Below, piece after piece: positions 5,549-30,538 of a stretch of 30,647 bases of DNA (within the stretch, counting starts at the first letter, position 1; each line of letters begins with the position of its first letter). This DNA is from a virus: IMG/VR virus record IMGVR_UViG_3300048065_000444, positions 1 through 30,647 of that record. One strand, written 5' to 3'. A program made the position numbers and the translations under genes. The notes beneath the pieces are model-generated. The model did not search any database. It saw only the letters and a program-made list of their open reading frames with translations, and had not been told where the DNA came from.

Positions 5549-5959
5549 TTATGATTTATCTGATGCAGTGATTGTGCCAGTCAATGTGATTGATCCTGAA
5601 TATGAAACAGGTGATTCCATTTCCGCACTTTGCTCAAGTGATGAAAGGAAACCCTCTGCGGTGAAAATACGATCACCAGTTGTTTCAGTTCCAAACACAC
5701 AAGTCAATTGTGTACGTGCCAAAAGAAAATCAGCAAGTTCAGTTACGTTTGATGTATCATCATAAGTGACTAATCCATCAAATGAAACTTCACCGCTCAT
5801 CACACCTGCGATAACCTCTTGAAATCCGCTTGAATCTTTTGTTGTTGCCTCTGGCAAATCAGTTGATAATGTTAATGAGCAAGATGTTGTATGCCCAAGA
5901 TTTGTTCCTTCTACTGAAAGCAAAAGGTTTGTTCCGTTAAATACACCCGTTGTTGGCAT
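5549..5959 (-). CDS. Major tail (tube) protein paralogue, 136 aa
   Basis: The protein is a clear paralogue of the next gene upstream (6003-6494). Both start ..NGTN(L/F)LL and share LPE(A/S)TTKDS.GF.EVIAGV.SGE and the ending AEME..VSYS..I.LTG. They look like TP901-1-type major tail proteins, which form the hexameric tube around the tape measure. This copy lacks the ~35-residue insertion at residues 14-48 of its neighbour. A promoter-like site with TATATTTG lies 26 bases upstream (5985-6012), and a strong terminator follows, so this copy may be expressed at high level as its own unit. I infer that it is the main tube subunit and that the longer copy is a decorated or terminal variant. Confidence 0.8.
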   Translation of the reverse strand: MPTTGVFNGTNLLLSVEGTNLGHTTSCSLTLSTDLPEATTKDSSGFQEVIAGVMSGEVSFDGLVTYDDTSNVTELADFLLARTQLTCVFGTETTGDRIFTAEGFLSSLEQSAEMESPVSYSGSITLTGTITASDKS

Positions 5960-5984: not shown

Positions 5985-6012
5985 CAAATATACTATATTT
6001 TTTTAATTCAAT
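5985..6012 (-). promoter_or_regulatory. Bacteroidota-type promoter for tail-tube gene
   Basis: The minus strand has TTG at 6009-6011, a 16-base AT-rich spacer and TATATTTG at 5985-5992, a full match to the -7 consensus TAnnTTTG. It lies in the short gap before the 136-residue tail-tube gene. Confidence 0.6.
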
Positions 6013-6494
6013 GTCATCAATCCAGTGAGTGAAATTCCAACTGAATATGAAACCGAGTTTTCCATTTCTGCAATTTGCTCAACGGATTCAATATATCCCT
6101 GACCATTAAAAATATACAATGAACTTGTGGAATCCTCAAAATAGAATTCCGCCTTTTGTTTTGTGAGCATCATTGTTGCCAATTCGTTGAAGTTTAATGT
6201 ATCACCATAATCAACCAAACCATCAACTGCAATTTCACCTGATCTAACACCTGCAATCACTTCACGAAAACCATTGGAATCCTTTGTTGTGGATTCTGGC
6301 AAATCAACGTTCAATGAAACCGTTGTTGATGTGGAATGCCCAAGCACAATTTTTTCATCCTCAAACGCATCACGAACACAATTCAATGATTCAAGAGTGC
6401 CACCATCATTCAAAACCCGCCCTTGAAATTGGGCAACCTTTGGATCGATATCACTCTTGTACAAAAGAAAATTTGTACCATTGATAACTCCCAT
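6003..6494 (-). CDS. Major tail (tube) protein paralogue with inserted module, 163 aa
   Basis: This is the longer paralogue of the tail-tube gene at 5549-5959, alignable along almost its whole length. The main difference is an insertion at residues about 14-48, containing FQGRVLNDGGTLESLNC, between NGTNFLLYK and IVLGH. The same module occurs twice in the tail-tip protein. It is encoded with an exact 22-base match to that gene, so the insertion looks mobile or recently copied. The protein is expected to assemble into or onto the tail tube; an exposed loop insertion would decorate the tube surface. The start ATG at 6494 is 5 bases from the preceding stop at 6500. Confidence 0.8.
   Translation of the reverse strand: MGVINGTNFLLYKSDIDPKVAQFQGRVLNDGGTLESLNCVRDAFEDEKIVLGHSTSTTVSLNVDLPESTTKDSNGFREVIAGVRSGEIAVDGLVDYGDTLNFNELATMMLTKQKAEFYFEDSTSSLYIFNGQGYIESVEQIAEMENSVSYSVGISLTGLMTLN
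6351..6455 (-). other. Inserted NDGGT-type module in tail-tube protein
   Basis: Codons about 14-48 of the long tail-tube gene are absent from its paralogue and contain N-D-G-G-T-L-E-S-x2-C-V. The DNA at 6397-6418 is identical to 1896-1917 in the tail-tip gene. Confidence 0.72.
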
Positions 6495-12596: not shown

Positions 12597-12626
12597 AAAA
12601 AAAAAGAGGCACATTGATTGTGCCTC
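12597..12626 (-). terminator. Rho-independent terminator after endonuclease gene
   Basis: On the minus strand a perfect 8-bp stem GAGGCACA/TGTGCCTC with a 5-base loop is followed by nine T. It lies between the endonuclease gene (stop 12657) and the connector gene (start 12574). Confidence 0.92.
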
Positions 12627-12656
12627 CTTTTAAGTTGAAACAGAAAAAACTCCCCT

Positions 12657-13034
12657 TTACAGGATTGATGCAAAGTTATTGAAATTTTCTTTGTAAATAC
12701 CCGTTGTTGATAACCTGATTGCTTTTTGCCCTTTATTCTTGATAATATAAAATCCACAATCACGCTCAACGTAAATTGCGAAATAATCAACCATATTTTC
12801 AGGATAAGATTTTGAATCCCTTCTCAATACACATTGCACATCATCACGATTTTCCTTGATTGTACGTGCCTCCGAAATTGATTTGATTTGTATTTTATTT
12901 AGAATGCCATCCTTTTCCACAATAGCATCGTATGCTGATGCATCAAGTAATGGCATTGAAACATTGAAACCCCATTCCATTGCACGAATGGCAAATCGAT
13001 ATTCCGCAAAGCATCCGAATTGATTAGCGTTCAC
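12657..13034 (-). CDS. PD-(D/E)XK endonuclease, group I intron-associated type
   Basis: The protein resembles the PD-(D/E)XK endonuclease family first linked to group I introns: NQFGCFAEYRFAIRAMEWGFNVSMPLLDASAYDAIVEKDG followed by KIQIKS. The likely active-site residues are the Glu in AEY, the Asp in YDAIV and the Glu/Gln-x-Lys of QIK. Length is 125 residues from GTG at 13034. A longer frame from TTG at 13085 would translate a terminator hairpin and is not favoured. The gene is enclosed by terminators (13049-13077 upstream, 12597-12626 downstream), inserted between capsid and connector genes. This is a homing-endonuclease or moron-like position; no intron is visible around it. Function as DNA cleavage is inferred. 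Confidence 0.68.
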   Translation of the reverse strand: MNANQFGCFAEYRFAIRAMEWGFNVSMPLLDASAYDAIVEKDGILNKIQIKSISEARTIKENRDDVQCVLRRDSKSYPENMVDYFAIYVERDCGFYIIKNKGQKAIRLSTTGIYKENFNNFASIL

Positions 13035-13110: not shown

Positions 13111-13251
13111 CTAAGATTGAGCAATTTTTTCCTCGAGTTCCCCGAGTTCCTTCAATACCATCAATTGTTTTGATAATGGCAACTTACTGAATTCCTTTGC
13201 ATCCAATAATTCCAAATATCTTTTGTAATCTGCGCTCAAATGTTTCATCAT
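13111..13251 (-). CDS. 46-residue helical protein, unknown
   Basis: The frame encodes MMKHLSADYKRYLELLDAKE and continues with FSKLPLSKQLMVLKELGELE to a TAG. It is almost entirely amphipathic helix with no membrane segment. Its ATG overlaps the stop of the preceding 50-residue gene as ATGA, which supports real translation. It is the last gene of the cassette and ends 34 bases before the terminator. I do not recognise it. Confidence 0.6.
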   Translation of the reverse strand: MMKHLSADYKRYLELLDAKEFSKLPLSKQLMVLKELGELEEKIAQS

Positions 13252-13400
13252 TCCCCTCTGTTTAGCATCATTGTAAATCCAATGAGGATCAAAAAAATCC
13301 CCGTAAAAGTATCATTGAAAAGGTAAATTGTACGTGCGCCAACTAAAAAGAATAACCACCCCAACAATCCCTTGTTTACTTTCACCTCTTTCCTTTTCAT
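13248..13400 (-). CDS. 50-residue membrane protein, two hydrophobic helices
   Basis: The frame starts MKRKEVKVNKGLLGWLFFLV and continues with a short loop and IFLILIGFTMMLNRGE. It has a basic N-terminus followed by two hydrophobic segments (about 11-28 and 32-45), so it is probably an inner-membrane hairpin. It overlaps both neighbours by ATGA junctions. Function unknown; small membrane proteins in independent phage cassettes often act on the host envelope or on superinfecting phages, which is only a suggestion here. Confidence 0.6.
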   Translation of the reverse strand: MKRKEVKVNKGLLGWLFFLVGARTIYLFNDTFTGIFLILIGFTMMLNRGE

Positions 13401-13513
13401 AACCCCATCCATTTATCAGCCAATGCACATAAGTACACAAACCCAGTCATCAATCCAAATGCTGCAAAATATATGATGCAGTCAAAAATAAAGTTTTCAA
13501 TTTTCCGTTTCAT
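13397..13513 (-). CDS. 38-residue single-pass membrane protein
   Basis: The frame starts MKRKIENFIFDCIIYFAAFG and continues LMTGFVYLCALADKWMGL. A single hydrophobic helix spans about residues 8-31 after a basic N-terminus. Its TGA overlaps the next ATG (ATGA). It shares the MKRK opening with the downstream 50-residue protein. Function unknown. Confidence 0.58.
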   Translation of the reverse strand: MKRKIENFIFDCIIYFAAFGLMTGFVYLCALADKWMGL

Positions 13514-13524
13514 TGTTTCAAGTT

Positions 13525-13725
13525 TTATGCGTTCATAGCTAAAATTGCACTCACTTTATGCATACAAGCCAACATACAATCATCCTCATTATCAAAAGAT
13601 ATTTGTTCGTGTACCATATCCAACTCACCATCCTCATATCTTGCAATCCTCCAAACATTTAAAGAATTTTGAAAAAATGGTTTGTAAGTGATTTGATTTC
13701 CGCTCCAGTTTGTAAATGATGTCAT
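13525..13725 (-). CDS. 66-residue soluble protein, unknown, first gene of cassette
   Basis: The protein starts MTSFTNWSGNQITYKPFFQN and ends with a helical, Cys-containing segment (DDCMLACMHKVSAILAMNA). No known domain is recognised. A complete Bacteroidota promoter (13754-13784), containing a palindrome shared with two other promoters, lies 29 bases upstream. It leads a cassette of four tiny genes that ends at a terminator, placed between the capsid and connector blocks. Confidence 0.65.
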   Translation of the reverse strand: MTSFTNWSGNQITYKPFFQNSLNVWRIARYEDGELDMVHEQISFDNEDDCMLACMHKVSAILAMNA

Positions 13726-13753: not shown

Positions 13754-13784
13754 CAAATATAGGAAAAAATTCTTTCCCTCCAAA
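13754..13784 (-). promoter_or_regulatory. Bacteroidota promoter with 14-base near-palindrome
   Basis: The minus strand has TTTG at 13781-13784, a 19-base spacer and TATATTTG at 13754-13761, a textbook Bacteroidota promoter. The spacer contains GAAAGAATTTTTTC (13763-13776), identical at two other promoters. A second TATATTTG overlaps the -33 box at 13781-13788. It lies between the capsid terminator and the small-gene cassette. Confidence 0.8.
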
Positions 13785-13793
13785 TATATATGC

Positions 13794-13825
13794 AAAAAAA
13801 AGAGGTGAACGAATATGCTCACCCC
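13794..13825 (-). terminator. Rho-independent terminator after major capsid gene
   Basis: On the minus strand GGGGTGAGC and GTTCACCTC pair over 9 bp (two G-T wobbles) with a 6-base loop, followed by eight T. It starts 27 bases after the capsid stop codon. Confidence 0.88.
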
Positions 13826-13851
13826 TTTTGTTGGTTGTGTTGCCCTATTGA

Positions 13852-15045
13852 TTAGGGAGTTTCAAGTGCAGCTTTTGCAGTTGAGAATGTACCATTAACG
13901 AATGCATTTGGCAAATAGTTTGTCAATGCAATACGTTCAGATACACGTACAGTTACGAATCCATCACGTACGTTTGTGCCATCTTCTCTGAAGAATTCAA
14001 CACCAACGTTGTCACGCACCCAAAGTTGAGTACCAACACCGAAGTTTCCACATAGGAAAGTTCCCGCAGTGATTGCAGTATTCACCACAACTGGCACACC
14101 CATAAATGCAGGTTGTAATCCAGCGTAAACCTGATCTTTCAAATAGCTGTTGTTGCTATCTTTCAATAATAGGATTTTGTGGAAATCTGTTGGATGTAGC
14201 ATAATGTAATCCGCATCATAATTGCCCAATGCCAATTGGTTTAGAGCAGCTATAAGAACATCGAATTCATTCGCTGCCTCAACTGATTGATAAAATGCAC
14301 CACCTGAAGTTGTATCAAAATCAGCTGCATCAGTTATGATTCCGCTCAAGTTTGGAGCAGATCCATTTCCTGAAAGGATTTGTGTATCCTCAACTGAAAG
14401 TAGTTTTTCAGGCGCACGAGCAGAAAGATAAGATGTCAATTGTGGAGTATCCGCTAACATTTCCTCACTGATGCGGAAATACGTTGCAATCTTGCGAACG
14501 TTTGCATCAGATGCAGTGAAATCGAAATCAGATTGACCAATGGTCGCTCCTTCAGCTGCGGTTGCAGCACCATTTGAATATCCAGATTCTTTTACAAAAC
14601 GTACAACATCAGATGAAGTTGATCCTTGTGGAATCAAGTTTCTTATGTGAGTTGAACGTGTTGGATCGAATTTGTATCCTGCAACTCTGTCCGCAGGAAT
14701 CACCTCACCAGTGAAATCGGATGCGATAGTCATATCCGCCTTCACCTCAAATGATGCAGATCTTGCGTTTCCTTTTGCGATTGCTTCAATAGCACCATCA
14801 TTGATGGCATTTGTTAAAGCACCTTTGAAAGATACGTTGTTGCTAACTTCAAACGATTTTTTGTTTGCAACTTCCATTGCATCCATACGCTCGTTGAATT
14901 GTGTTGTTAGGTTGCTGATTTCGCTTTTTAGCATTTCATCAGCTTTCCCAGTAGCGGATTCAACCGCTTGTCCTTGCGCCTTTTCAAGTTTGGCATCGAT
15001 TAAATCACCAAGTTGATCAAGTTGCGCTTTTGTATTTTCATTCAT
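13852..15045 (-). CDS. Major capsid protein, HK97 fold
   Basis: This 397-residue protein has the order typical of HK97-like capsid proteins. An N-terminal coiled-coil delta domain (about 1-75, MNENTKAQLDQLGDLIDAKL onwards) acts as scaffold and is normally removed by the prohead protease, probably near residues 95-110. The coat domain follows, with the E-loop region near IPQGSTSSDVVRFVKESGY, then ISEEMLADTPQLTSYLSA, the helix DVLIAALNQL, and MLHPTDFHKILLLKDSNNSYL. It ends with the P-domain strands FFREDGTNVRDGFVTVRVSERIALTNYLP. It lies 21 bases after the protease gene and is followed by a strong terminator, as expected for a very highly expressed gene. Confidence 0.95.
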   Translation of the reverse strand: MNENTKAQLDQLGDLIDAKLEKAQGQAVESATGKADEMLKSEISNLTTQFNERMDAMEVANKKSFEVSNNVSFKGALTNAINDGAIEAIAKGNARSASFEVKADMTIASDFTGEVIPADRVAGYKFDPTRSTHIRNLIPQGSTSSDVVRFVKESGYSNGAATAAEGATIGQSDFDFTASDANVRKIATYFRISEEMLADTPQLTSYLSARAPEKLLSVEDTQILSGNGSAPNLSGIITDAADFDTTSGGAFYQSVEAANEFDVLIAALNQLALGNYDADYIMLHPTDFHKILLLKDSNNSYLKDQVYAGLQPAFMGVPVVVNTAITAGTFLCGNFGVGTQLWVRDNVGVEFFREDGTNVRDGFVTVRVSERIALTNYLPNAFVNGTFSTAKAALETP

Positions 15046-21182: not shown

Positions 21183-21207
21183 CAAAAATATAAAAAAAAA
21201 GCCATCA
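21183..21207 (-). promoter_or_regulatory. Possible promoter for the packaging/head operon
   Basis: The minus strand has TATTTTTG at 21183-21190, a match to TAnnTTTG, just after the terminator stem and 4 bases before the small terminase ATG. The upstream TTTG-like bases are only 15 away, so the -33 part is weak. Confidence 0.35.
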
Positions 21208-21852: not shown

Positions 21853-21878
21853 AAAAAAAGCCACCCGATTGGATGGCT
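21853..21878 (-). terminator. Rho-independent terminator after the 71-residue gene
   Basis: On the minus strand AGCCATCC and GGGTGGCT pair over 8 bp (one G-T) with a 4-base loop, followed by seven T. It ends the one-gene unit that begins at the promoter 22137-22168. Confidence 0.88.
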
Positions 21879-21899: not shown

Positions 21900-22115
21900 T
21901 TATGCTAAACACCATCTATTGAATCCATCTGTTAAACTTTTATTTTCAACAAATGTATTGTGCAATTCAATTCTTTCAAGGAAATTAGTTTCCAAACCTC
22001 TTGCATAAAGGTATTTTTTTGTTGCTCCCAAAACTTTATATTTTGTGTTAGGGTTTGCCATATCAACGTATTGAATTGTTTGTCCGAATTTTAAATCTGT
22101 TGCTTGAAGTTTCAT
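21900..22115 (-). CDS. 71-residue protein in single-gene cassette, unknown
   Basis: The ATG at 22115 gives MKLQATDLKFGQTIQYVDMA, followed by beta-rich sequence (TKYKVLGATKKYLYARGLET) and FNRWCLA at the end. The opening FGQTIQYVD...KYKVLG suggests a small beta barrel, but I recognise no family. An upstream TTG frame to 22139 would start inside the promoter and is rejected. It has its own promoter (with the shared 14-base palindrome) and its own terminator, so it is an independent transcription unit between the early and late blocks. A regulatory or anti-host role is possible. Confidence 0.65.
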   Translation of the reverse strand: MKLQATDLKFGQTIQYVDMANPNTKYKVLGATKKYLYARGLETNFLERIELHNTFVENKSLTDGFNRWCLA

Positions 22116-22136: not shown

Positions 22137-22168
22137 CAAATATATGAGAAAAAATTCTTTCCCACAAG
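22137..22168 (-). promoter_or_regulatory. Bacteroidota promoter with 14-base near-palindrome
   Basis: The minus strand has TTG at 22165-22167, a 20-base spacer and TATATTTG at 22137-22144. The spacer contains GAAAGAATTTTTTC (22148-22161), identical to the copies at 13763-13776 and 30483-30496. It drives the 71-residue gene, whose ATG is 22 bases downstream. Confidence 0.78.
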
Positions 22169-23278: not shown

Positions 23279-24124
23279 TTAAATTCCACAATACCCAGAA
23301 TCACAATCATTGAAATCATCATCAAACAATTCAAATTGCATTTTGTGTTTTTTTATTTTTTCATAAGTGATTCCCGTTTTCCAAGTTCCTTTTCCATTCC
23401 TTCCAATTTCCTGATCTGCAAACCATTGCATTTTGTTTGTATTTTTATCAAACATTTTTTTCAAAAGCATTTCGTTGCGGTGAAAACACCCAACACAATT
23501 ATTCATCCAAGCAAACCGAATCGGTTTGTTTTTCCAAAATTCCTCAATTTTATCTTTTCTTATATTGTCATCAATTAAAGGGAAAGATGGTTTTTGCCAT
23601 TCAAAAATTTGCCATTTGTTTCTGCCATTGGGATGCTTTGAAACTGTTGCCTTTATTTCTAACAATCCATTTTTATTCAATTTATCATTCATCCTAATTG
23701 CCCGTTTTAATTCATTTGCCCGATATCCAATGCGCATTTCAACTGGATCGTTTATATTTTTATACCACCATTCAAAAATTGGAATCAATTTCAAATTTGT
23801 TGTACAATATCTGTGTAGTTTGTTTGGAAGCCATCCTCCTTTTTTTTCAACAACCTCATCAAATGTAATCCCTGAAACCCAATTTATTTTTTTCCCAATG
23901 AATTGTTCAAGATCAAGCATTGTGTATATTATTGCATCCTCTTCCAATGTACCAATGAATTCCTTTCCAATTTTATCCGATACAATTTGCCTGATTTTTT
24001 TATCAGGAAACAAACAATTTGTGTCATCAGTTCTAACCAATGAAAAAACATTGTAATCCGCAGGATAATTTGCTGCAATAAAACTTGAGGTTTTGCCTCC
24101 CGATAAACTATTAACTTTTTTCAA
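23279..24124 (-). CDS. PAPS-reductase-like PP-loop ATPase
   Basis: The 281-residue protein belongs to the PP-loop family related to PAPS reductase: SLSGGKTSSFIAANYPAD at the N-terminus is the PP-loop (SGGKTSS), and LHRYCTTNLKLIPIFEWW matches the second conserved motif. A C-terminal Cys cluster (NNCVGCFHRNEML, then CDSGYCGI) could bind metal or carry out sulfur chemistry. Such phage proteins are common but their substrates are mostly unknown; nucleic-acid thiolation (DndC-like) or nucleotide modification are candidates. The start must be TTG at 24124: it overlaps the primase stop as TTGA, and no ATG exists before the PP-loop. It sits upstream of the ParB-like gene in the same operon. Confidence 0.82.
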   Translation of the reverse strand: MKKVNSLSGGKTSSFIAANYPADYNVFSLVRTDDTNCLFPDKKIRQIVSDKIGKEFIGTLEEDAIIYTMLDLEQFIGKKINWVSGITFDEVVEKKGGWLPNKLHRYCTTNLKLIPIFEWWYKNINDPVEMRIGYRANELKRAIRMNDKLNKNGLLEIKATVSKHPNGRNKWQIFEWQKPSFPLIDDNIRKDKIEEFWKNKPIRFAWMNNCVGCFHRNEMLLKKMFDKNTNKMQWFADQEIGRNGKGTWKTGITYEKIKKHKMQFELFDDDFNDCDSGYCGI

Positions 24125-27606: not shown

Positions 27607-28003
27607 TGCTAAAGTATTTTTTGATTGTATCTGAAACAACATCAAAATCATTGAGGCAATATGTTGCCCAACCTTTTTTGCTTAATCGCTCAAGCCATTT
27701 CAATTGGTTTGGAGTTGCCTTATTTTTCCCCGCCTTGAGTTCAATTGCCAATCCATTGAATGAATCATTGCAATCAAAAATCAATACATCAGGAACTCCC
27801 GATTTGCCACCAAGATATTTGAATTTGAAACGCTCAAAAGGAGTGCGCCTTCCTTCATTTGGAACGTGCGCACATAAAGCATCTGGATATTGCAACTCAA
27901 TGAAACTCATCACTTGATGTTGCAACTTATCCTCATTCCCAAGATACTTATAAAACCCCTTTGACATTGTTACACTTTTAACAAAATTACACAAAAAACT
28001 CAT
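27596..28003 (-). CDS. VRR-NUC domain nuclease
   Basis: The protein (135 residues from ATG at 28003, or 123 from ATG at 27967) is one VRR-NUC domain, a PD-(D/E)XK nuclease type found in phages and in FAN1. It shows LQHQVMSFIELQYPDALCAH with VPNEGRR, then KSGVPDVLIFDCN (catalytic Asp) and AIELKAGKNKATPNQLKWLE (E-x-K, then Q). It likely cuts branched or flap DNA during phage replication or recombination. The start at 28003 overlaps the previous stop as ATGA, like many genes here. Confidence 0.9.
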   Translation of the reverse strand: MSFLCNFVKSVTMSKGFYKYLGNEDKLQHQVMSFIELQYPDALCAHVPNEGRRTPFERFKFKYLGGKSGVPDVLIFDCNDSFNGLAIELKAGKNKATPNQLKWLERLSKKGWATYCLNDFDVVSDTIKKYFSNEI

Positions 28004-28452
28004 TGAATTTGCATTTTTAGCATTTCCATTCTCAAATCATCAATTTCATTTTCAAGTTCACCAATGATTTTTAATGCATCAGCAAGTTGATGTGAAAGTG
28101 ATTTTCCGCTCATTGATGGTGACACTTTTCTGGAGGATCTGAAATCAACAATTGTTTTCAATGATTCAAAATTTTCCCTGAAATTTACATCAACCTCACA
28201 AAGTATTTTAAAGCGTTTTGTGCCATGCAACACAGTTGCGTGATCCTTTCCCACCGATTGCCCGATTTCATTCAAACTCATCCTCCGCATTCGGCAAATT
28301 TCATAATACATATATCTTGCCTCCACAACTTCACGTTTCCTTGTGCGCCTTTCAATATCAATTTTGAAAAAATCCCAAATTGATTTTTTTGCAACATTGC
28401 GAATGTTTGCATTTGATATTTGTTTTTTAGATAATAATGCTCCCATCCTCAT
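28000..28452 (-). CDS. DnaA domain IV-like DNA-binding protein
   Basis: The start is placed at ATG 28452 (150 residues; ATG 28446 equally possible); an upstream frame would lie deeply inside the exonuclease gene. Residues about 30-85 resemble the DNA-binding domain IV of DnaA: YEICRMRRMSLNEIGQSVGK followed by the signature-like DHATVLHGTKRF, including the Asp-His-x-Thr-Val-Leu-His core. There is no AAA+ ATPase part. The C-terminus is a coiled coil (LADALKIIGELENEIDDLRM). It could bind DnaA-box-like sites to help phage initiation or to compete with host DnaA. Confidence 0.75.
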   Translation of the reverse strand: MRMGALLSKKQISNANIRNVAKKSIWDFFKIDIERRTRKREVVEARYMYYEICRMRRMSLNEIGQSVGKDHATVLHGTKRFKILCEVDVNFRENFESLKTIVDFRSSRKVSPSMSGKSLSHQLADALKIIGELENEIDDLRMEMLKMQIQ

Positions 28453-29206
28453 TTCGGTTTGTTGATTCGTATCCCAATGCAACATCGGTTTCCTTATAAA
28501 ATTTCCAATTGTCCAATGCTTGTTTGTATCCCATTTTCCATTTGTTTCCATTGCGCCCAAGTTCAATCAAATCATCACTCAAGCCGTACACCTCAATTGA
28601 ATAAGGATAATTGGTTTCAACCGCAATGAAACGGAAATCCTTTGGATTATATCCAAGCGCATCACAGTAAAATGTTGCTTGTAAATCGTAACGGAATTTT
28701 AAAATGTCAATGCGGAATTTTTCAGGTGAATTATCTTGACACGTTTTAACATCTGAAATCCATCCTGCAATTGAATTTTTGCAATCAGGTCGCACACGAA
28801 TATCAACACCATCCATTGTGCCATAATGTGAAACCTCGATTTCACCCTTGCAAAACTTTTGCGCCAATTCATTTTTTTTCAAGTTTTCCATAATGGCTTT
28901 GATGCGGTTATGATCCGCCTCATCCAATACGATTTTTCCTTTTGCCTTTTCGATGTGTTCCGCCTTGAGTGCTTTGCCCTCCTTTGTGCGCCCATCAACC
29001 TTTGGCATTATGTAATAATCATCATAAAATTTATCGCTTTCAAGCATTGCAGTATGCACCGCAGTTCCAAATTTCATTGCATCGGTTTCATTGAATTTCC
29101 TATCAAGGAAATGTTTTACCGATTTTTTGGCAATCATTTTCAAACCTGATGCACTGATGGAATCCTTTGAATGATATTCCTCATTTGTATCTTGTATCTG
29201 TTTCAT
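28427..29206 (-). CDS. RecE/lambda-exo-like exonuclease (DUF3799 type)
   Basis: The 259-residue protein starts with EEYHSKDSISASGLKMIAKK and FGTAVHTAMLE, typical of the DUF3799 / PD-(D/E)XK exonuclease group. The active site shows IRVRPDCKN (Asp) and WISDVKTCQD (D-x-K), then FRYDLQATFYCDAL (Tyr/Gln). It should degrade one strand of duplex DNA and cooperate with the ERF-type annealing protein two genes upstream. It overlaps the preceding gene by ATGA. Confidence 0.9.
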   Translation of the reverse strand: MKQIQDTNEEYHSKDSISASGLKMIAKKSVKHFLDRKFNETDAMKFGTAVHTAMLESDKFYDDYYIMPKVDGRTKEGKALKAEHIEKAKGKIVLDEADHNRIKAIMENLKKNELAQKFCKGEIEVSHYGTMDGVDIRVRPDCKNSIAGWISDVKTCQDNSPEKFRIDILKFRYDLQATFYCDALGYNPKDFRFIAVETNYPYSIEVYGLSDDLIELGRNGNKWKMGYKQALDNWKFYKETDVALGYESTNRNEDGSIII

Positions 29207-29471: not shown

Positions 29472-29502
29472 AAAAAAAAGGGAGCAGCAAAATGCCACTC
29501 CC
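29472..29502 (-). terminator. Rho-independent terminator after SSB-like gene
   Basis: On the minus strand GGGAGTGGC and GCTGCTCCC pair over 9 bp (two G-T wobbles) with a 5-base loop, followed by eight T. It closes the HTH-ERF-SSB unit. Confidence 0.88.
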
Positions 29503-29511
29503 ATTGCTTGA

Positions 29512-29766
29512 CTACCAAGGCAAGTCACTTTCCCCTTGTGCCACTTTTTGCACTTTGCCATCTGGCTGCCAAGTGTTTAGTTCAGCGTACATTTTACCGC
29601 TTTGAGCGGTTTTCACATCAAGATTCACCCATCCGTTTTTTGAGTTTGCTTTCACAAACTTTCCGAATTCATCAACCTTGATTGATACATTTGCCACCAC
29701 AAAATCGGGTGCGTTTTCTCTACGTTTCACAATGAAACCATCTGCAAAAATTTTATCCTCTGCCAT
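29512..29766 (-). CDS. Single-stranded DNA-binding-like protein
   Basis: The 84-residue protein looks like a compact OB-fold ssDNA binder: FADGFIVKRRENAPDFVVAN, SKNGWVNLDVKTAQSGKMYA, then a short tail ending ESDLPW, reminiscent of the acidic-aromatic tails of SSB proteins. It directly follows the ERF gene (TAATG overlap) and precedes the terminator. It would protect ssDNA and recruit replication proteins. It is shorter than bacterial SSB, so assignment is by context and pattern. Confidence 0.68.
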   Translation of the reverse strand: MAEDKIFADGFIVKRRENAPDFVVANVSIKVDEFGKFVKANSKNGWVNLDVKTAQSGKMYAELNTWQPDGKVQKVAQGESDLPW

Positions 29767-30263
29767 TATATATTGAATTTAGATTTTAATTTACTTAATT
29801 GAGTTGCGGACAATTCCGCTTTTTTAATTGCCTTTAAAGCAGTTTGTCGATCTGATTTCATCACAACTTCAAATTGCTCATTTGTCAATTTTGGCTTCAT
29901 TCCTGATGCCATATTACCATCATCATCCTCCGCTTGTAACGAAAGCAATGATTGTAATGTGTACCGCCTGAAATACGTTATTGCTGATCCGAGTTTCTGC
30001 GGATCATTTATTTCAGGAAGTTTCACTCCACTTTCAATGGAGTTTTCACCATCACTTATCACACTGCAAACTTCACCATCCTTGATGGGTTGCAAAAGTG
30101 TGAGTTTGTGTTTGTTGAGTATTGGCAACACCTCCCGAATCAATACATTGATGTCAAAGTATTTTGATTTGAAAAAAGGATTTGTTGCTGATTTTGAAAT
30201 CGCTCCGATTTCGTTTTGCACTTTCAAAAGTTTTTCGTGCAAATTGTTTTCTGTTTCTGCCAT
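29766..30263 (-). CDS. erf: ERF-family single-strand annealing protein
   Basis: The 165-residue protein matches the ERF superfamily: KVQNEIGAISKSATNPFFKS with KYFDINVLIREVLPILNKHKL, then the core KLGSAITYFRRYTLQSLLSL and AEDDDGN. It anneals complementary ssDNA during phage recombination and is probably paired with the exonuclease at 28427-29206. The C-terminal residues are Lys/Ala-rich helices. It starts 4 bases after the HTH gene. Confidence 0.93.
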   Translation of the reverse strand: MAETENNLHEKLLKVQNEIGAISKSATNPFFKSKYFDINVLIREVLPILNKHKLTLLQPIKDGEVCSVISDGENSIESGVKLPEINDPQKLGSAITYFRRYTLQSLLSLQAEDDDGNMASGMKPKLTNEQFEVVMKSDRQTALKAIKKAELSATQLSKLKSKFNI

Positions 30264-30267
30264 TGTT

Positions 30268-30453
30268 TTAAATTAAACGATTAAGATCAAACCCCAACGA
30301 TTGGAGTTTTTTGATTTCATCCACTTGAAATGTACCGCAATTGTTCACCCTTGAACGAAGTGTTGGGATTGTCATTCCAAGTGCTTGACAAACCTTTTTT
30401 CGTGTGAGTTCCAATCGCTCCAATTCGGAGTTGAAATATGTGTTAAATTCCAT
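30268..30453 (-). CDS. Small HTH DNA-binding protein
   Basis: The 61-residue protein (MEFNTYFNSELERLELTRKK onwards) contains a XRE/Cro-like helix-turn-helix: LTRKKVCQALGMTIPTLRSR followed by a third helix region VDEIKKLQSLGF. It is the first gene of the putative early unit, and its promoter carries a near-palindrome repeated at two other promoters, so it is the natural candidate for the factor that binds them. It may be an activator, repressor or replication-timing regulator. Alone it is too small for a CI-type repressor with a dimerisation domain. Confidence 0.8.
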   Translation of the reverse strand: MEFNTYFNSELERLELTRKKVCQALGMTIPTLRSRVNNCGTFQVDEIKKLQSLGFDLNRLI

Positions 30454-30474
30454 AATTGAAAAAATTTATTTTCG

Positions 30475-30502
30475 CTAATATAGAAAAAATTCTTTCTAAA
30501 AA
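30475..30502 (-). promoter_or_regulatory. HTH-gene promoter with 14-base near-palindrome
   Basis: On the minus strand GAAAGAATTTTTTC (30483-30496) is followed at once by TATATTAG (30475-30482), a one-mismatch -7 box; no clear TTG lies at the -33 position. The ATG of the HTH gene is 21 bases downstream. The missing -33 box may mean that an activator is needed. Confidence 0.55.
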
Positions 30503-30538
30503 GAAACCTCAAGCAAAAAAAATTTCACTCAAGGTTTC
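30498..30538 (-). terminator. Right copy of tail-tip hairpin terminator
   Basis: The 11-bp stem (30528-30538 with 30503-30513) pairs throughout, with different wobble positions from the left copy at 117-156, followed by five T. Confidence 0.58.

Follow-up and report, generated by a model that had tools for sequence, protein, structure and literature searches.

A 14-base near-palindrome, GAAAGAATTTTTTC, lies at three promoters of an uncultured marine bacterial virus. We consider it probable (roughly 0.7) that this element is the operator of a phage regulator, most likely a 61-aa helix-turn-helix (HTH) protein, which would repress the three promoters, here called A, B, and C. The window, meaning the whole 30,647-nucleotide stretch analyzed (IMG/VR record IMGVR_UViG_3300048065_000444), is a circularly read tailed-phage genome with a unit of about 30,381 bp (~30.38 kb); positions 1–143 match positions 30382–30524 with 99% identity, and beyond them the two sequences diverge as strain variants. 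All genes in the window are encoded on the minus strand, as are the promoter elements and terminators given below. Read along that strand, the genome starts with the HTH protein, an ERF recombinase, an exonuclease VIII-like protein, replication proteins, a primase/helicase, and a ParB-like protein, and continues with terminase, portal, protease, HK97-type capsid, connector, and tail genes.

Exact copies of GAAAGAATTTTTTC were found on the minus strand at 102–115, 13763–13776, 22148–22161, and 30483–30496, precisely where an initial annotation, made from the sequence alone, had placed them. Because positions 1–143 repeat 30382–30524, the first and last copies are a single site, and the circular genome holds three distinct ones: operator A (30483–30496, or 102–115 at the other contig end), operator B (22148–22161), and operator C (13763–13776). 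The element is indeed near-palindromic, with pairing about the centre in 12 of 14 bases, and is the sole 14-mer with at least three copies in the genome unit. An order-3 model predicts 0.0027 exact copies by chance, and only 4 of 100 simulated genomes held any non-low-complexity 14-mer at three or more copies. When up to two mismatches were allowed, one further match appeared in the window, at 14396. The initial annotation had considered that its proposal would fail if the motif lay in coding regions or lacked conservation in relatives; the predicted genes contain none of the three sites, and the motif is conserved, as described below.

Each site stands immediately before one of the −7 boxes that had been named for it. 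At promoter A, the box TATATTAG (30475–30482) abuts the operator (gap 0), and only a poor −33 element (TTTC) is present. Promoter B reads TTG-N20-TATATTTG (TTG at 22165–22167, box at 22137–22144) and promoter C reads TTTG-N19-TATATTTG (TTTG at 13781–13784, box at 13754–13761), with operator-to-box gaps of 3 and 1 bp, respectively; the elements of both are near-consensus. The earlier statement that the 14-mer sits between the −33 and −7 elements holds for B and C. The view that each unit is closed by a terminator was borne out: a terminator-like hairpin at 29480–29502 follows the HTH, ERF, and 84-aa genes of unit A, a conserved terminator (AGCCATCCAATCGGGTGGCT followed by a T run, 21859–21878) closes the gene after operator B, and a hairpin at 12601–12631 closes the cassette after operator C. 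Similar hairpins end two further operons: that of the head genes, at 13798–13829 shortly before promoter C, and that of the tail genes, at 122–156, where the T tail of the hairpin abuts operator A. A scan for sigma-70-type promoters gave no more matches than in shuffled sequences and is uninformative for promoters of the Bacteroidota type. Promoter A is followed, just past its −7 box, by GAAAATAAATTTTTTC (30450–30475, minus strand), which is kept in relatives and is possibly a second, weaker operator.

To examine conservation, we searched IMG/VR with a pattern combining the 14-mer and the box, and obtained 45 stretches that sort into A, B, or C contexts. The three sites, and hardly any others, recur in five relatives (G002, G004, G005, G025, and G027) with capsid identities of 89–92%, each at a fixed position in the gene order and, as in the window, at the head of a transcription unit, while their flanks diverge. 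G005 is a closed circle, G027 carries site B at 14866, and G002 has all three positions, with two strain variants representing C. Matches to the consensus GAAA[AG]WWWNTTTTC number three in each of the window, G005, G025, and G027, and four in G004, where the extra match (2288) has no −7 box; shuffled genomes gave means of 0.12–0.27. Among 24 distinct class C sequences, identity was 95% in the motif versus 60–77% in the flanks, and the variants include the perfect palindrome GAAAAAATTTTTTC. In this class the operator slides by 0–1 bp while TTTG-N19-TATATTTG stays fixed, and therefore operator and promoter are separate signals. A single phage regulon, as the initial annotation had proposed, is well supported, and so is an operator that overlaps promoters of the host type.

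In sister clades, whose capsid and HTH proteins are about 83% and about 50% identical to those of the window, respectively, AAAWAATTCTTT recurs at promoters, with a core that matches that of the window motif when the latter is read on the opposite strand; a related A/T palindrome is kept in these clades at the equivalent promoters. AAAWAATTCTTT either abuts the −7 box or lies 17–18 bp upstream of it, in which case another, imperfect copy adjoins the box. Such tandem operators, 17–18 bp apart, are seen for example in G010 (6291, 13971, and 20767), versus a single copy in the window clade.

The regulator most likely to bind the 14-mer is the XRE-type HTH protein encoded by the first gene of unit A (30268–30453), a candidate repressor. 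A single-sequence model was poor (pLDDT 73), and we used an alignment-based AlphaFold model instead, which gave a confident four-helix HTH (mean pLDDT 90). Its fold neighbors are XRE, HTH, and CI-type proteins of viruses and, at a weaker level, Stl, C.BclI, SinR, and the 434 repressor. Pfam at its cut-off misses the protein (HTH_3 appears below cut-off in 2 of 27 members, E 0.017), and comparison with named phages gave only weak matches in Clostridioides (E 0.1). The best match in a PDB sequence search, 5y69 (E 0.044), whose aligned sequence we take to be AcrIIA1, was too weak to use.

Orthologs with 40–100% identity are present in dozens of contigs, with an A/T-rich palindrome and a −7 box just upstream in nearly all of them; down to about 50% identity, a palindrome with a related core lies just before the box. 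Operators of HTH proteins with arginine at position 33 of the recognition helix have G:C at both ends, and lysine, alanine, or glutamine at this position is accompanied by A:T at one end or both, a pattern that is only suggestive, as it amounts essentially to one clade split in the tree. Counted against the HTH protein as the binder, the genome also encodes a protein like DnaA domain IV and an HTH-domain replication initiator. We infer the link between protein and operator from association: co-conservation with the site across sister clades makes the HTH protein the best candidate, and favors the earlier suggestion that it is autoregulated. It is probably a Cro/Aca-like repressor that would block host RNA polymerase. 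The remainder of unit A comprises an ERF-family single-stranded DNA-annealing protein (29766–30263) and a conserved 84-aa gene without family match (29512–29766).

By contrast with the core genes that flank them, which are conserved, the first genes after operators B and C are hypervariable. In the window, operator B is followed by a 71-aa gene (21900–22115), in place of which relatives carry unrelated genes: 12 distinct loci hold 11 of them, encoding 54–183 aa, behind promoters that are nearly identical. Downstream of this slot, B loci share a conserved region that carries the terminator AGCCATCCAATCGGGTGGCTTTTTT, beyond which there is mostly an TATTTTTG box, a few bases ahead of the ATG of the terminase small subunit (TerS); in some relatives a methyltransferase gene comes first. 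In the window this box (21183–21190) has no operator and is a candidate late promoter. Sister clades have equivalents, and the boxes in G007, G008, G010, G011, and G014 likewise follow a terminator and lie a few bases before the TerS ATG, and the element is likely a leaderless late promoter.

After operator C, a 66-aa variable gene (13525–13725) precedes conserved small genes of 38 aa (family F3, 13397–13513), 54 aa (F0, 13248–13412), and 46 aa (F1, 13111–13251) and a conserved PD-(D/E)XK endonuclease-like gene (F2, 12657–12980). Among 21 C loci, the first gene belongs to 12 families under near-identical promoters and is mostly followed by these same conserved genes. The sister clade has 15 first-gene families in 29 C loci, many under an identical 42-bp promoter. 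Four C-slot families are common to both clades, indicating exchange between equivalent positions. Altogether, 39 slot representatives fall into 34 unrelated families of small genes, and searches of the 39 proteins against Pfam, PHROGs, and NCBIfam gave no family match of credible function. We rejected the idea that the slot genes are noise of ORF calling, because the B genes fill their slot from 40–53 nt past the operator start to the conserved terminator stretch after the stop codon, and because the four C-slot families recur across clades.

These results modify the picture of a co-regulated set of accessory genes given in the initial annotation. For B and C the claim is stronger than could be known from one sequence, because the first gene is hypervariable, but it does not apply to A, which heads the core HTH and ERF recombinase genes. 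The supposed four-gene accessory cassette at C consists of one variable gene followed by conserved small genes including the endonuclease-like one. Other variable places exist, namely a PAPS-reductase-like gene, a methyltransferase, genes that resemble tail fibres, and a pair located between the portal and the morphogenesis genes, and the operators thus mark two of several. The PAPS-reductase-like gene (23279–24124, minus strand) is missing in the five close relatives compared and is found in G014, G022, and G026.

In the most economical model, the HTH and slot genes would be expressed immediately early and then shut off by the HTH protein. As soon as the phage enters the cell, the host RNA polymerase would start from promoters A, B, and C, which are of the Bacteroidota type; A would yield HTH and ERF, and B and C would yield short terminator-bounded transcripts encoding small variable proteins, which would act on the host. 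As the HTH protein accumulates, its dimers would bind the operator that fills the gap between −33 and −7 and shut all three promoters, including its own. Transcription of the structural genes would from then on depend on read-through or on promoters without an operator, for which the boxes before TerS, a tail gene, and others are separate late candidates. Binding, repression, timing, and the action of slot proteins on the host are steps that we infer. The initial annotation had left open whether a bound protein blocks or remodels polymerase. Since the gap between operator and −7 box is 0, 1, or 3 bp (A, C, and B, respectively) and the operator slides relative to the fixed TTTG-N19-TATATTTG, occlusion fits better, and remodeling is disfavored. 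MerR-type activators keep their operator in fixed phase with both promoter elements across an over-long spacer; here the gap varies and the spacers at B and C are 19–20 bp, and MerR-like remodeling was set aside.

Might the motif instead be an A/T-rich promoter spacer preferred by the primary sigma factor of Bacteroidota, kept for promoter strength? Promoters of F. johnsoniae have AT-rich motifs centered at −18 and −28 (PMC6847099), so that the G/C-free sites of the sister clades, which lack the G/C ends, could partly be generic promoter sequence. We nevertheless regard this explanation as unlikely, as three promoters that otherwise differ share exactly the same 14 bases with G...C ends, these bases are better conserved than their flanks, their distance to the −7 box varies by 0–3 bp, and the operator-less candidate promoters of the window genome, including the TerS one (21190) and that of a tail gene (5992), do without them.

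One protein can both activate and repress, as does p4 of phage phi29, and late gene blocks adjoin B and C; the HTH protein might therefore bind the motif yet activate B and C, or switch between the two roles, so that these promoters fire later than A. This is quite improbable in our judgment, because the near-consensus −33 and −7 elements of B and C should not need an activator, a dimer centered near −20 would exclude polymerase, and the variable phasing speaks against remodeling. Palindromic sites overlapping phage promoters can also be host LexA sites, a precedent for a motif bound by a host regulator such as the SOS repressor, through which the phage would sense the state of its host. We give this very little weight, since the known Bacteroidota SOS motifs, CTAA-N5-TTAG and GGA-N5-TCC (PMC8565304), differ from the 14-mer in sequence and spacing, and the site is co-conserved with an adjacent phage gene.

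Repression by the HTH protein, our preferred reading, would make the arrangement work like two described systems. Aca proteins associated with anti-CRISPRs are small HTH proteins of a single domain that average 60–65 aa, their inverted repeat is always within the core promoter, and they repress small, exchangeable anti-host genes (PMC9410906, PMC9765179). Similarly, the HTH protein here has 61 aa and a four-helix model (Aca criterion, about 60–80 aa), the near-palindrome lies between −33 and −7 (B and C) or abuts −7 (A), and the proposed early expression followed by shut-off would resemble Aca control (PMC9410906). Unlike in Aca systems, the HTH gene heads an operon of recombination and core early genes, among them ERF, the variable genes lie about 8 and 17 kb away and would be controlled in trans at two distant promoters, and the slot genes match no family of known function. 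We did not file the protein as an Aca, because it does not share an operon with the small genes and none of the slot genes is an established anti-CRISPR. In archaeal viruses with Aca8, one virus-specific regulatory sequence precedes the regulator and scattered small early anti-defense genes, mostly single and of no known family (PMC11065993). In the window, too, a single such sequence precedes the regulator and several small orphan genes, but theirs are archaeal promoters with more copies per genome, whereas this Bacteroidota-type phage has exactly three.

Similar to lambda and 434 Cro, the HTH protein is small, has XRE-type fold neighbors, would use a 14-bp two-fold site between promoter elements, and is encoded by the first gene of an early operon, where self-repression would be expected. 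However, no CI-like protein or integrase was found among the proteins scanned, all genes lie on one strand without a divergent promoter, and the operators are spread over three separate regions. Mycobacteriophage stoperators also pair one regulator with several copies of a short site around the genome; they are asymmetric and numerous and terminate elongation (PMC9283540, PMC6550527), whereas the present sites are three near-palindromes inside promoters, and the stoperator reading was set aside.

Going further, we tentatively propose, at somewhat less than even odds, that the operator tags two fixed-position exchange slots for anti-defense or host-takeover genes, which the HTH protein, in addition to controlling the recombination genes, would shut in trans; the 14-base switch may thus point to genes used against host cells. 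To our knowledge, phage anti-defense genes have almost no mutual sequence similarity and are found mainly by association, and few are known in Bacteroidota phages. If the proposal is true, a conserved operator with a bounded slot would offer a sequence-only handle on such genes in these phages, and could gather dozens of new anti-defense families without similarity to known ones across a large group of marine phages that are uncultured and probably infect Bacteroidota. The arrangement also offers a simple candidate for how timing is set genome-wide in a phage of 30 kb, with one 61-aa repressor and three promoters.

A Bacteroidota host is suggested by the TTTG/TANNTTTG promoters (PMC6847099) and by the terminase, whose relatives belong to Bacteroides, Phocaeicola, Parabacteroides, and Flavobacterium phages (at most about 40% identity); a search of the phage collection found no close cultured relative. 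Against genome contigs, the capsid gave a single 65% match, in phage contig L173 (PBPJ01000031.1) of a Woesearchaeota-labeled MAG. The label is likely a binning error, and this match was set aside as a host clue. The DnaA-like protein noted above is encoded at 28000–28566 (minus strand); its DNA-binding part resembles domain IV of DnaA (PF08299, E 8e-11), it has no AAA+ domain, and it may bind DnaA boxes for phage replication. Finally, the neighboring tail genes at 5549–5959 and 6003–6494 (minus strand) are paralogs that share a 129-nt repeat with 73% identity.
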